Source of the DNA: Candidatus Afararchaeum irisae
Lineage (GTDB): Archaea > Halobacteriota > Halobacteria > Halobacteriales > Afararchaeaceae
DNA: 38,781 nt
Direction: 5' to 3'
NCBI GenBank assembly: GCA_034190545.1
Contig: JAXIOF010000049.1
Span: 1-38,781, forward strand
Of this stretch, positions 7,566 to 35,011 are shown in pieces. Made by a program: the position numbers and the translations under genes. Position 1 is the first letter of the stretch. Every line of letters starts with the position of its first letter. The notes beneath the pieces are model-generated. The model was not told the DNA's origin, ran no database searches, and saw only the letters and a program-made list of their open reading frames with translations.

Positions 7566-7852
7566 CGCCAGACTGCGTCTGGCGGGCAACCAGAATCCTG
7601 TGGATTCTGGGTGACGTCCCCAGAACGCGAAGCGTTCTGGTGTGCCGAACGAGACGCTTCGCGTCTCGTCAACGTCCCCAGAAATCTTCGATTTCTGGTA
7701 TGCGAACAAATCGCGCAGCGATTTGTCAACGTCCCCAGAACCCGAAGCGTTCTGATATGCGGACGAGAGCTTCGCTCTCGTCAACGTTCGAAAGACGCTT
7801 CGCGTATTTCGAGCCCACAAGACCGAAGGTCTTGTGAACGCCCTGAAGGGCG
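7566..7852. repeat. Array A: eleven tandem triloop hairpins in the left end of IS copy 2
   Basis: Hairpins start at 7566, 7590, 7620, 7649, 7678, 7706, 7736, 7762, 7789, 7816 and 7839. Most have a 9-bp stem and a three-base loop, mainly TTC or GAA, closed by C-G. Spacers of 6-9 nt alternate between a CAACGTCC type and a TATGCGA type, giving a unit of about 57 nt that contains two different hairpins. Two members carry single stem mismatches (7736-7754 and 7789-7811). The array splits the CCCGCCCT/AGGGCGGG left-end hairpin of the transposon. There is no coding potential. Confidence 0.9.
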
Positions 7853-7888
7853 GGATTCTCTCCTCGCAGAAAGATAGACTCTCGCCCC

Positions 7889-7899
7889 TAGATATATCT
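7889..7899 (+). promoter_or_regulatory. TATA-like box upstream of the dehydrogenase gene
   Basis: AGATATATCT ends about 30 nt before the ATG at 7929, just outside the left end of IS copy 2. It fits an archaeal TATA box giving a very short leader. Confidence 0.5.
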
Positions 7900-7928
7900 A
7901 CCTCGGCTGAGATAACCCGACCCATACA

Positions 7929-8657
7929 ATGTTAGAAGACACTGTTTCTATAGTCACGGGTGGTTCGAGCGGCATCGGCAGGTCTATAGCCGAGAGGTAC
8001 ACAGACGAGGGAGCCGAAGTCGTTATAGCCAGCAGATCCCGGGACGAGTGCCGAGAAGCAGCAGACGAGATAGGCTGTGATTACACGACGTGTGACGTCT
8101 CGGTATACAGTCAAGTCGAAGACGCCGTCGAGTACACAGTCGAGAGACACGGTCGTCTCGACGTAGTCGTCAACAACGCGGGCATCTACCAAGCCGGAAC
8201 TGTTGAGGAGACCGATATAGACGACTGGAGACGTATCATGGAGGTAAACCTCGACGGTGTAATGCACGGGTCGAAGGCGTCAGTACCCTATCTCAGACAG
8301 ACCGAGGGCTGTATAATCAACATCGCCTCGGTCTACGGAGTTGTAGGCGGAGCCGAGTCGGCTGCGTACTGTGCCTCGAAAGGCGGTGTGGTCAACCTCA
8401 CTAGGGAGATGGCAGTCGACTACGCCCCCGAAAACGTGAGGGTCAACAGCATATCCCCCGGTGCTGTCGAGACTCCAATGACAGAGGACAAGCTAGAGGA
8501 CGAGGAGTTCTACAACCAGATAACGAGGGAGACACCCCTGGGTAGGATAGCACAGCCCGAGGAAATCGCAGGAGCGGCTGCTTTTCTGGCTTCCGAAGAC
8601 GCCTCGTATGTAACGGGTGCTAATATTCCTGTCGACGGCGGATGGACTTCACACTGA
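7929..8657 (+). CDS. Short-chain dehydrogenase/reductase (FabG-like SDR)
   Basis: This is an NAD(P)-dependent oxidoreductase with a Rossmann fold, probably cytoplasmic. It has 242 residues, typical for a classical SDR. The TGGSSGIG cofactor-binding motif lies at about residues 10-17, NNAG near residue 85, the catalytic Ser in INIASVYG, and the YCASK catalytic pair near residue 150. The C-terminus contains the usual ASYVTGANIPVDGGW ending. The sequence resembles FabG and glucose dehydrogenases, and the substrate cannot be deduced. No co-oriented neighbour is close enough to suggest an operon. Confidence 0.93.
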   Translation: MLEDTVSIVTGGSSGIGRSIAERYTDEGAEVVIASRSRDECREAADEIGCDYTTCDVSVYSQVEDAVEYTVERHGRLDVVVNNAGIYQAGTVEETDIDDWRRIMEVNLDGVMHGSKASVPYLRQTEGCIINIASVYGVVGGAESAAYCASKGGVVNLTREMAVDYAPENVRVNSISPGAVETPMTEDKLEDEEFYNQITRETPLGRIAQPEEIAGAAAFLASEDASYVTGANIPVDGGWTSH

Positions 8658-8987
8658 CTCAGAGGAAAAGTAGGAAGGGCATGTCAGGTGAACGGTGCCT
8701 GAGGGTGCTCAGGAGGTGGATCGTCCCCTTCCCAAGGACTGGAGCCTCATCGGCTCCATTTCGTACAACGAAGTTGGGGAGTATAGTTATTAGGTGGTTA
8801 AGGCGTCTCCGCCTCGAACCCCTAAGCTTCAGTAGGAAACCCGACGATGGCACCGTTATAATACCGGATTAACGTCTGACGTGTGTTTCGTAAGGAGGGA
8901 TTTTGAGTTATCTCAGCATCTCTCCCCAGCCTAAGACGAGGTTCATGTCGTTACATATGCCGTGGCGGACTATACGGTTGAGAACTG
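8658..8987. ncRNA. Structured intergenic region, candidate non-coding RNA or degraded element end
   Basis: These 330 bases lack a credible ORF but contain several short stems in a row: CCTGAG-GGTG-CTCAGG (8698-8713), GGAGCC-TCATC-GGCTCC (8741-8757), and a larger stem GAAG..GGGG/CCCC..CTTC (8770-8779 with 8819-8830) enclosing AGGCG-TCT-CCGCCT. The loops are four to seven bases, unlike the triloop family. It could be a small RNA, the leftover right end of another transposon, or a long 3' untranslated region. The transcript and strand are not established. Confidence 0.3.
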
Positions 8988-9425
8988 TTACTTGTTCTTC
9001 TTTCTGAGTTCCTTCCTCTTTTCGCGTAGGCTCTGGATACGTGCCGCCTCTCTCTGGTGGTACCATCCTACTAGAAACCCCGCGAGGGCTCCCATGCTTA
9101 CGTGGCTGAGGTAGTTGAAGTACGAGTCAGGGATTCTGCCTCCTTTGATTATCTGATAAGTCATATGGAACAGAACAGTAAGAACCAGAACTACCACTCC
9201 CAGAGCCGAGGACAGAGCCACCTTCGTGGATCTGTCACCGTCAAGACCGCTGGTGTAGAGGTAATACGACGCTACGAGTAACGAAACCGAGAAGACTGTG
9301 GGTGTCACCAAGGCTAAGACAGAGATCCACTCCCAGCTTTTTGAGACTAGGAGAGCTGCCTCCGAGACCAAGACTGACGCACCGATGACCCCGAGGACTA
9401 TAGATGAAATCAGCTTCTTGACCAT
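8988..9425 (-). CDS. Small four-helix membrane protein, putative sensory module
   Basis: I do not recognise a named family. The 145-residue protein has about four hydrophobic helices (roughly residues 4-27, 35-58, 68-92 and 108-124). It ends in a basic amphipathic tail, REAARIQSLREKRKELRKK, likely cytoplasmic and coiled-coil-like. GALAGFLVGWY followed by such a helix resembles the junction between the membrane sensor domain and the signalling helix of haloarchaeal histidine kinases. It is transcribed divergently from a histidine kinase that lacks membrane segments. It may be a detached sensor partner, but that is inference from architecture and position. Confidence 0.65.
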   Translation of the reverse strand: MVKKLISSIVLGVIGASVLVSEAALLVSKSWEWISVLALVTPTVFSVSLLVASYYLYTSGLDGDRSTKVALSSALGVVVLVLTVLFHMTYQIIKGGRIPDSYFNYLSHVSMGALAGFLVGWYHQREAARIQSLREKRKELRKKNK

Positions 9426-34009: not shown

Positions 34010-34651
34010 CTAAACGAACTTTATTCCGAGATCCTTGAGACCGTTCTTTATGCCTATGTTTATAAGAAGGGGTGTTACACTCTCTATCTGTGCGGCGTTT
34101 CCGAGGCTTCCGGCGTCGAGTGCGTTGACGCCTTCCACCGACTCGACGACCTCGACTGCGGTCTGTTTCGCGTCTGCCTCCCCGAAGACGGCTATGTCGA
34201 CTCCGAGTTCGGCGTCAGGGTCGGCGAGACGTCCCGCGGCTATGTTGTGGAAAGCCCCCGCGACGCCGAACGAGTCGGGGAGACCGTCACGTACGAGCTG
34301 TGCCGCACTTCCCTCGTCGGGCTGGTCGTACTTGAAGCCGTCGTCGTCACGTTTCATGCTCGTGACGGGTGATATGACTGTAGCGTCTCCGTCTGCGACC
34401 TCGGCGACCTGATCCACGACGTCTGGGAGGGAGCCGAAAGGAACCGCGAGGACGACGACCTCGGCTTTAGCTGCGTCGGCGTTCGATCCGCTCTCGACTT
34501 CGACGCCCGTCCTCTCGGAGTACTCGTCGGCAGCTTCAGATGCTCTGTCCTCGTCCCTGCTTCCGACTACGACTTCGTGCCCAGCCTGAGCGAGACGTAC
34601 CGAGAGACCGCCTCCGAAGTCACCCGTGCCTCCTATTATTCCTATTCTCAT
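34010..34651 (-). CDS. npdG: NADPH-dependent F420 reductase
   Basis: A cytoplasmic oxidoreductase of 213 residues that transfers hydride between NADPH and the deazaflavin coenzyme F420. The N-terminal Rossmann motif GIIGGTGDFGGGLSVRLA is followed by VVVGSRDEDRA, whose Ser-Arg favours NADP. VVLAVPFGSL, then SPVTSMKRDDDGF and GAFHNIAAGRL match family regions near the F420 site, and the C-terminus LLINIGIKNGLKDLGIKF is typical. I chose the ATG at 34651; the longer frame would need an upstream start in the tRNA promoter region and has no homologous look. It is divergent from tRNA-Glu. Confidence 0.93.
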   Translation of the reverse strand: MRIGIIGGTGDFGGGLSVRLAQAGHEVVVGSRDEDRASEAADEYSERTGVEVESGSNADAAKAEVVVLAVPFGSLPDVVDQVAEVADGDATVISPVTSMKRDDDGFKYDQPDEGSAAQLVRDGLPDSFGVAGAFHNIAAGRLADPDAELGVDIAVFGEADAKQTAVEVVESVEGVNALDAGSLGNAAQIESVTPLLINIGIKNGLKDLGIKFV

Positions 34652-34727
34652 ACTTACTTGGTATGACGCCGTGGGAGTCGTTATAGATTGCGTTATACAG
34701 ACGCAAGGCGGAGCCAAAGCACAATTC

Positions 34728-34734
34728 TTATACT
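34728..34734 (+). promoter_or_regulatory. TATA box of tRNA-Glu
   Basis: CTTATAC lies about 27-33 nt before the first base of the mature tRNA, the expected position for an archaeal tRNA promoter. Confidence 0.6.
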
Positions 34735-34760
34735 TGTACCGCGATACTGTTAGAATGCGC

Positions 34761-34835
34761 GCTCCGTTGGTGTAGTCCGGCCAATCATCTTGGCCTTTCG
34801 AGCCGAGGACCTGGGTTCAAATCCCAGACGGAGCA
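34761..34835 (+). tRNA. tRNA-Glu (anticodon UUC)
   Basis: A 75-nt tRNA. The acceptor stem GCTCCGT (34761-34767) pairs with ACGGAGC (34828-34834), and the discriminator base is A. The anticodon stem TTGGC/GCCGA surrounds the loop CTTTCGA with anticodon TTC at 34797-34799. The T-arm is CTGGG-TTCAAAT-CCCAG. No intron is seen. CCA is not encoded. A triloop hairpin begins inside the last bases of the acceptor end. Confidence 0.96.
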
Positions 34836-35011
34836 AATCTTTGATTTGCGAGCCAGCGAAATCTACGATTTCGCGACGGAGCAAATTTCTCTGAAATTTG
34901 CATGGAACAGAATCGTAGATTCTGTGACGGAGCAAAAATTTCTGGTTTTTGCTAACACGCGAGAACTCCGTTCTCGCGGGCTCAGAAATCTGAGATTTCT
35001 GAACGGGGACT
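34827..35011. repeat. Array C: tRNA-Glu 3'-end repeats with seven triloop hairpins
   Basis: GACGGAGCA, the last nine bases of tRNA-Glu, occurs at 34827-34835, 34875-34883 and 34926-34934 (periods of 48 and 51 nt). Between copies lie hairpins at 34833-34849, 34856-34874, 34881-34901, 34907-34925 and 34932-34952 (two G-T pairs), then 34958-34978 and 34982-35002. All have three-base loops. The final 34 nt (34978-35011) are identical to 33948-33981, the outer end of array B. No tnpB is adjacent, so this is a non-coding array abutting a tRNA. Confidence 0.88.

Follow-up and report, generated by a model that had tools for sequence, protein, structure and literature searches.

Mobile DNA made up of nothing but hairpins has been described in the mitochondria of fungi, algae and sponges and, in a different form, in Rickettsia. 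REP sequences have a single stem sequence with a GTAG foot and rely on a Y1 transposase. The mitochondrial elements comprise two adjacent hairpins that are scattered, sometimes in tandem and in some cases within genes, and in sponge mitochondria the loops change while the helix is conserved (PMC2800124). Rickettsia palindromic elements are ~150 bp long, with conserved families and peptides (PMC10969869), and REP/BIME sequences and the REPINs with RAYT transposases form doublets of short hairpins spread over the genome (PMC3116915). Among haloarchaeal elements, the SMR-A small mobile repeats of Haloquadratum walsbyi are ~110 bp long, with prominent terminal inverted repeats and highly similar copies of one type, and PATEs, which derive from IS605-type elements or are their relatives, possess near-terminal palindromes and are as short as 52 bp (PMC3119063). 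Here we describe a family of miniature double-hairpin units found in arrays on a 38,781-nucleotide stretch of DNA (hereafter the window; contig JAXIOF010000049.1, C49) of Candidatus Afararchaeum irisae, order Halobacteriales, whose genome comprises 1.9 Mb in 117 contigs.

Like SMR-A, the units are short and non-coding, show no clear target duplication and are found inserted in near-terminal IS605/PATE palindromes (PMC3119063); unlike SMR-A, they are 42-58 bp long with two separate hairpins, and their inner stems and loops differ widely between copies. In H. walsbyi, an SMR-A-like candidate of ~120 bp with the inverted ends CGCTCATCTGTAG/CTACAGATGAGCG is free of triloop pairs, and triloops in that genome do not clearly exceed other loop sizes. 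PATEs are likewise haloarchaeal, non-coding and palindromic without target duplication (PMC3119063), whereas the units lack near-terminal palindromes and a terminal target oligonucleotide of their own and sit inside PATE palindromes and elsewhere. In contrast to the terminal hairpins of IS200/IS605 elements, which are TnpA sites, the units have no loop polarity and occur also outside tnpA/tnpB elements. As with the Rickettsia elements (PMC10969869), palindromic insertions keep genes in frame, here those for ribosomal protein uL18, mevalonate kinase and a chemotaxis receptor, but the units are archaeal and 42-58 bp long, with two triloop hairpins and variable stems. The mitochondrial double-hairpin elements, compared by description, are organellar, whereas the archaeal units change the helix in both arms and keep loop size and closing pair fixed. 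They differ from REP/BIME sequences and REPINs in having many stems, no conserved GTAG foot in the unit alignment and no tie to tnpA number. Their spacers recur while the palindromes vary, the opposite of identical repeats with unique spacers, so that a CRISPR array is rejected. A preliminary description, made from the window alone, had set the palindromes apart from CRISPR and REP/BIME and had named the fungal double-hairpin and Rickettsia elements as the nearest analogies; the distinction is upheld, and the analogies prove relevant. No earlier description of such units was found in the open-access literature. We consider them a new archaeal kind of double-hairpin element, of which SMR-A is the closest described relative, sharing the target and not the structure.

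Architecture and Abundance of the Hairpin Units

Perfect stems were counted by loop size in 0.99 Mb of the A. irisae genome and in dinucleotide shuffles of it. Stems of at least 8 bp with 3-nt loops numbered 192, against 28 and 26 in two shuffles; those of at least 9 bp numbered 104 (8 shuffled) and those of at least 10 bp only 14 (1 shuffled), which places a sharp limit on stem length at 9 bp. For 4-nt loops the rise was mild at best, with 46 observed and 34 and 22 in the first and second shuffle, and loops of 5, 6, 7 and 8 nt were near expectation (27/18, 18/11, 22/23 and 23/18, observed/shuffled). Of the 192 triloops, 169 were closed by a C-G pair, compared with 7 in a shuffle. Chance and base composition are ruled out by these counts as the cause of the triloops, and the excess of 3-nt loops over other sizes and over shuffles, which the preliminary description had set beforehand as its test, holds genome-wide. 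Within the window, perfect stems of at least 8 bp had loops of 3 nt in 24 cases, 4 nt in 2, 5 nt in 1 and 6 nt in 0.

The loop sequences are restricted: 197 of the 231 C-G-closed triloops (85%) read R-N-A (R, purine; N, any base) on one strand, mostly GNA, and with the two strands folded together the counts are GAA 63, AGA 37, GGA 34, AAA 32, GTA 19, ACA 6 and GCA 6. Which strand bears the purine-type loop is random. Published work describes GAA as the loop of highest stability in DNA and mini-hairpins of the GNA type as extraordinarily stable (PMC9828363, PMC4686876).

The array hairpins are mostly paired, with centres usually ~24-28 nt apart in the arrays and a peak at 24-25 nt across the 0.99 Mb. 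The pairs form non-coding double hairpins of 42-58 bp with 8-9-bp stems and C-RNA-G triloops, that is, R-N-A loops closed by C-G. Four recurring types, among others, are type A, [CCCGAxxx]ggc[TCxxxAATC]ACG; type B, [CAGAAxxx]tgtgcga[ACGAxxx]caACG; type C, [TGAAAATC]tacgta[TGCGAATC]; and type D, [TCTCTxAxC]y[TAACGAAGC], where square brackets enclose a hairpin. A type is marked by its spacers and outer stem, while the inner 2-4 bp and the loop are variable. The stems come from a limited lexicon (CGTGAATC, CAGAAATC, CAGAACGC, ACGAGAGC and others), so that the earlier statement that stem sequence varies freely was too strong. The same two-hairpin units, spacers included, stand in unrelated flanks and in many genera.

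Filled and Empty Insertion Sites

To find empty sites, the array flanks were compared by BLAST with the sampled part of the own genome and with loci from other genomes (loci are numbered with L; a slash marks the junction), and contiguous empty versions were found for many haloarchaeal sites. L079 is filled with two units, CACTCCGAATCAACG/TCCCCAGAA...GTTAACG/CCTGTGGAG, L077 and L105 hold one unit at the same place, and L100 and L116 are empty, CACTCCGAATCAACG/CCTGTGGAG. A plasmid of Natronomonas pharaonis (L119) reads CCCTACTGCG/TCCTCAG...TTAACG/CTGCTTGTCC where L107 has the empty form CCCTACTGCG/CTCCTTGTCC; another site of L107 is filled, GACGGCG/TTGACGAATCGC...GGGGACG/CTGTATCC, and is empty in L056 and L077, GACGGCG/CTGTATCC. 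L056 in turn carries GCGTTG/TGTTGAAAATC...GCAACA/CTCCTTG, with the empty counterpart GCGTTG/CTCCTTG in L109. On the chromosome of H. walsbyi C23 (3,148,033 bp), one tnpB end occurs in 8 filled and 4 empty copies, the filled form being AAAGTGCG/TTCACCAGAC(TCC)GTCTGGTGGGCTGTCAGAC(GCA)GTCTGACAACG/TCGTAGAAG or a close variant; plasmid PL47 of H. walsbyi has none of these hairpin pairs. Two IS6 transposase genes (L117 and L120) each carry units missing from the other.

The window provides its own comparisons. With array 1 removed, positions 7557-7563 joined to 7841-7860 read TCCCG/CCCTGAAGGGCGGGA, and positions 37279-37369, at the left of tnpB3, form an end homologous to that of array 1 and an empty form of the site filled in L070, which carries an array homologous to array 1. 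For array 3 an empty version of the homologous site was identified in L083 via the homologous array of L040, and the type-D pair inside tnpB1 is absent from the corresponding site of tnpB3 (38543-38665). Units of array 4 are delimited by GACG/GAGC, the end of the tRNA-Glu acceptor stem.

At haloarchaeal junctions the left flank ends in CG with its other letters varying and the right end, AACG, is constant and so belongs to the unit. These comparisons show that whole units insert and prefer certain targets: haloarchaeal units enter 3' of CG, mainly in the terminal palindromes of IS605/PATE elements, and end in AACG, which restores the site. For most haloarchaeal arrays, tnpB is no more than a few hundred bases away or the array falls in a PATE-like end. 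One array of the own genome, with 13 hairpins (L049), has no recognised IS end, however, and units also lie inside tnpB and tnpA genes (L064, L086), out of frame in the tnpB of L064. In a test for basal stems, the complementarity of array flanks was no higher than that of mismatched flanks, since the insertion falls within one arm of the host palindrome. The preliminary description had recognised the palindromes and missed that they are halves of double-hairpin units, that these units are insertions whose empty sites can be identified, and that their main haloarchaeal targets are IS605/PATE terminal palindromes.

Stem Covariation and Loop Inversion

Pairing is kept in 96% of the cells in an alignment of 30 type-B units, in which 51 cells show two-sided and 4 one-sided differences, the latter all G.U; the controls gave 15 two-sided cells in shuffles and 0-7 in slid structures. 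RNA helices would change via G.U intermediates. Comparison of homologous hairpins with identical stems gave 95 cases of the same loop, 32 of an inverted loop and 92 of some other difference, so that 26% of differing loops are exact inversions, against ~9% estimated for independent draws. The loop GGA at position 32304 of array 2 stands as its reverse complement TCC in the homologous hairpins of L078 and L081, the type-C unit of array 3 recurs in L043, L056, L077, L078 and L081, the last of which has the second loop inverted, and at an orthologous site of Candidatus Methanolliviera two sister genomes differ, one with the loop GGA and the other with TCC. Template switching between the arms of inverted repeats has been recorded to homogenise the arms and to invert the spacer (PMC8604942, PMC8794818). 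Two-sided changes with almost no one-sided steps, together with frequent exact loop inversion, suggest pairing at the DNA level and, in part, template switching. Of the two origins considered earlier, selection on hairpin shape and generation by fold-back or template switching, both prove relevant, the covariation and inversions being signatures of the second, and that interpretation is partly supported.

Distribution in Archaea

The type-B model (R1) matched relatives of the type-B unit in 102 of the 118 Halobacteriales genomes. Outside the order, a sample of the phylum was covered with the type-B model alone, which would miss units with other stems; matches came from three genomes of one genus, including Candidatus Methanolliviera hydrocarbonicum. 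No similar DNA was found in annotated phages. In 361 kb of Ca. M. hydrocarbonicum there are 100 triloop stems of at least 8 bp against 0 in shuffled sequence, compared with 12 against 2 for 4-nt loops; the loops are GAA, AAA and GGA, the stems share the ...AATC lexicon with haloarchaeal units, and the distance between hairpin centres peaks at 22-26 nt.

Several Methanolliviera units interrupt or adjoin genes, whose names are read from the translated sequence and not from a profile search. Filled and empty forms were recognised at several Methanolliviera sites. The ribosomal uL18 gene contains a 51-bp insertion with two different hairpins, missing in both sister genomes; the mevalonate kinase gene contains one of ~42 bp and the chemotaxis receptor (MCP) gene a further unit, and the reading frame is kept in all three. 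Units also lie at the start of the HMG-CoA synthase gene and at the end of a CBS-domain gene. At one site, in sister genome G158 only, an extra 48-bp unit is nested in the spacer of an existing unit, an instance of array growth caught as it happened. A Methanolliviera subfamily (L221 13336, L218 8750, L226 7771 and L234 6865) is bounded on both sides by ATG or ATGA; some of its members stand beside likely start codons, and they may change translation starts.

Proposed Mechanism and Alternative Explanations

We propose, with a probability of roughly 0.7, that the palindromes are the halves of miniature mobile double-hairpin DNA elements whose fold acts as DNA and whose arms are kept matched by fold-back copying. 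A unit inserts whole, in haloarchaea 3' of a short stretch with CG as its last letters and mostly in the hairpin ends of IS605-type or PATE elements, and its right end AACG recreates the insertion site, so that later units can enter alongside and build tandem arrays. The covariation and loop data support the DNA hairpin as the active form, which would act on single strands exposed in replication or transposition. A polymerase folding back at the hairpin would copy one arm from the other and sometimes flip the loop; arm matching would probably arise mainly from such copying, plus some selection for well-forming hairpins. Movement would most likely occur through microhomology-guided templated insertion or a hairpin-recognising enzyme acting in trans, and less likely through TnpA.

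Several observations weigh against this proposal or restrict it. Mobility is deduced from sequence comparison, and some empty sites could be deletions between short flanking repeats, an account that fits the uL18 and IS6 genes poorly. Near-identical copies in other genomes mostly travel within larger IS605/PATE copies, so that recent type-B spread was largely passive. Junction repeats differ by lineage (CG/AACG, TCAT, TCAAA or none), and a single enzyme for all is thus not established. The loop-inversion pairs are mutually non-independent. Stems with one mismatch exist (276, against 154 in shuffles), which implies that arm correction is imperfect and that selection, decay and correction act together. 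ViennaRNA, with DNA as with RNA parameters, gives all C-NNN-G triloops nearly equal energy and cannot rank them, so that the argument from loop stability rests on the literature.

An alternative, which we regard as unlikely, is that the hairpins are expanded terminal palindromes of IS200/IS605/PATE elements, recognised by the Y1 transposase TnpA and not mobile themselves. It would account for the arrays lying mostly near tnpB or in PATE-like ends, for copies spreading with IS605/PATE elements and for the correlation of unit number with tnpB number in the 118 genomes (rho 0.43). However, the same IS/PATE ends occur both filled and empty, the loops lack strand polarity whereas TnpA sites are strand-specific, and unit number is unrelated to tnpA number (rho 0.13, p 0.16), with means of 6.8 units in the 57 genomes without tnpA and 7.2 in those with it; TnpA as mobiliser is not supported by these copy numbers. 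This alternative is already weakened by units in places other than such ends: within tnpB, in IS6 genes, at the end of a tRNA gene and in housekeeping genes of Methanolliviera.

Slightly less probable still is that there is no mobile element, the palindromes arising locally through template switching and multiplying when short repeats slip. Arm covariation, the excess of loop inversions and the short direct repeats flanking units (CG, AACG, TCAT) would all be expected, but units shared with their spacers between unrelated flanks and many genera, and 51-bp insertions with two different hairpins, are left unexplained.

Selection at the RNA level, in which the hairpins would belong to structured transcripts, for example omega RNAs or tnpB untranslated regions, seems improbable: many units lie in or beside the tnpB 3' end, where the sot/omega RNA is encoded, but many units are antisense, intergenic or in coding genes, R-N-A loops fall on either strand at random, the ratio of 51 two-sided to 4 one-sided cells differs from change through G.U, and triloops make up 3.5-6.1% of rRNA hairpin loops against 42-56% for tetraloops (PMC8794818). 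A known RNA family is rejected, the Rfam models matching only sot0042 and tRNA in the window and no family matching the hairpin units; a match to a named repeat family would have refuted the preliminary description, and none fits, in Rfam or in the searchable literature.

Returning to the mobile double-hairpin elements, we would tentatively go further, at somewhat less than even odds: the family may inherit nothing but a shape, that of two hairpins of single-stranded DNA (C-RNA-G, ~24 nt apart), persisting across Halobacteria and Methanoliparia while its letters are rewritten by fold-back copying, moving without a transposase of its own and adding peptides to essential proteins. The units are a genome-dense archaeal case and are common among cultivable haloarchaea; their sites are seen filled, empty and nested, the junction is defined and the flipping of loops is visible, which makes the question of movement and two-arm change directly testable. 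Archaeal housekeeping proteins, ribosomal uL18 included, carry fresh insertions made by such elements, and some of the so far unexplained repeats with which the ends of haloarchaeal transposons are crowded are accounted for by the units.

Features of the Window and Related Loci

The tnpB domain model has 4 matches within the window, and the genome has 34 tnpB and 3 tnpA matches; two sot/omega RNAs lie in the window, at the 3' ends of tnpB1 and tnpB3. The arrays (Table 1) stand where they were first placed, at 7566-7836, 32233-32383, 33708-33985 and 34833-35003, along with an isolated pair inside tnpB1. The first estimate of about 35 palindromes was fair if decayed hairpins are included: 26 hairpins of the arrays show 7 or more pairs, closure by C-G and no more than 1 mismatch.

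Table 1. Coordinates of transposon genes, RNAs, arrays and hairpin units in the window (square brackets, hairpin; parentheses, loop).
Feature	Position	Strand	Remarks
sot0042 RNA	6112-6283		At 3' end of tnpB1; Rfam match
tnpB1	6165..7460	-	OrfB_IS605, Cas12f1-like TNB domain; domain match
Type-D pair [TCTCTGAAC(TTC)..]t[TAACGAAGC(TTT)..]	6280..6323		Isolated, inside tnpB1
Array 1	7564..7840		9 clear triloop hairpins and 1 decayed, within IS605-type/PATE end palindrome
Unit [CGCCAGAC(TGC)GTCTGGCG]gg[CAACCAGAATCC(TGT)GGATTCTGGGTG]	7566..7613	+	Found too in L070, L071, G100
Type-B unit [CCAGAACGC(GAA)..]tgtgccga[ACGAGACGC(TTC)..]caACG	7616..7674	+	R1, E 7.6e-23; hairpins 7618-7642, 7649-7669
Type-B unit [CCAGAAATC(TTC)..]tatgcga[ACAAATCGC(GCA)..]caACG	7674..7731	+	R1, E 3.7e-20; hairpins 7678-7698, 7706-7726
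Type-B unit, hairpin 2 [GACGAGAGC(TTC)GCTCTCGTC]	7731..7786	+	R1, E 4.2e-17; hairpin 1 decayed (CCAGAACCCGAAGCGTTCTGA)
Unit [TCGAAAGACGC(TTC)GCGTATTTCGA]gcc[CACAAGACC(GAA)GGTCTTGTG]	7788..7836	+	
Array 2	32233..32383		Downstream of tnpB2
tnpB2	32356..33624	-	Arrays on both flanks
Array 3	33707..33975		Upstream of tnpB2; inserted after TACTGCG/
Type-B unit [TCAGAACGC(TTC)..]tatgcg[AACGAGAGC(TTC)..]AACG	33783..33838	+	R1, E 7.6e-21
Type-C unit [TGAAAATC(GGA)..]tacgta[TGCGAATC(TCT)..]	33867..33910	+	
Type-A unit [CCCGAGATC(TCC)..]ggc[TCAGAAATC(TGA)..]ACG	33928..33974	+	
tRNA-Glu(TTC)	34761..34835	+	Host site of array 4
Array 4	34830..35004		3' end of tRNA-Glu
tnpB3	37370..38710	+	Left-end palindrome without unit; serves as empty-site comparison

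The hairpins of array 2 are TCAAACTC(TAC), CGTGAATC(TAA), GTCAGAAGC(GGA), TCGCAAATC(TAC), the G-C-closed CTCTGAGG(GAA) and TCGTGAAC with a 4-nt loop. At positions 34761-35004, copies of the tRNA-Glu acceptor end (GACGGAGC) separate the hairpin units 3' of the tRNA. The left-end palindrome of tnpB3 holds another insert at 37307-37329, with a 9-bp stem and a 5-nt loop (GTTCCGACA CTTGT TGTCGGAAC).

Beyond the window, the type-D unit type occurs in a PATE at L045 8519 and L063 13158, and the surrounding regions (L045 8300-8760 and L063 12950-13400) share an exact, PATE-like ~290-bp duplicate that ends in GAGGTAGTTCAC and holds the pair. At L086 10058-10455 (G000:C5), the match to a Y1 tnpA gene includes a hairpin and a single TAA stop, and an array lies at the gene start. 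At L088 18700-19150 (G000:C7), tandem tRNA 3'-end sequences (ggttcgaatccggtcccacgca), possibly remnants of integrated elements, adjoin a hairpin pair, and in two genomes of one genus (G004, G043; L114, L115) type-B units lie in the loop of long palindromes like CCAGCCGGGAGGCGGGCGC...

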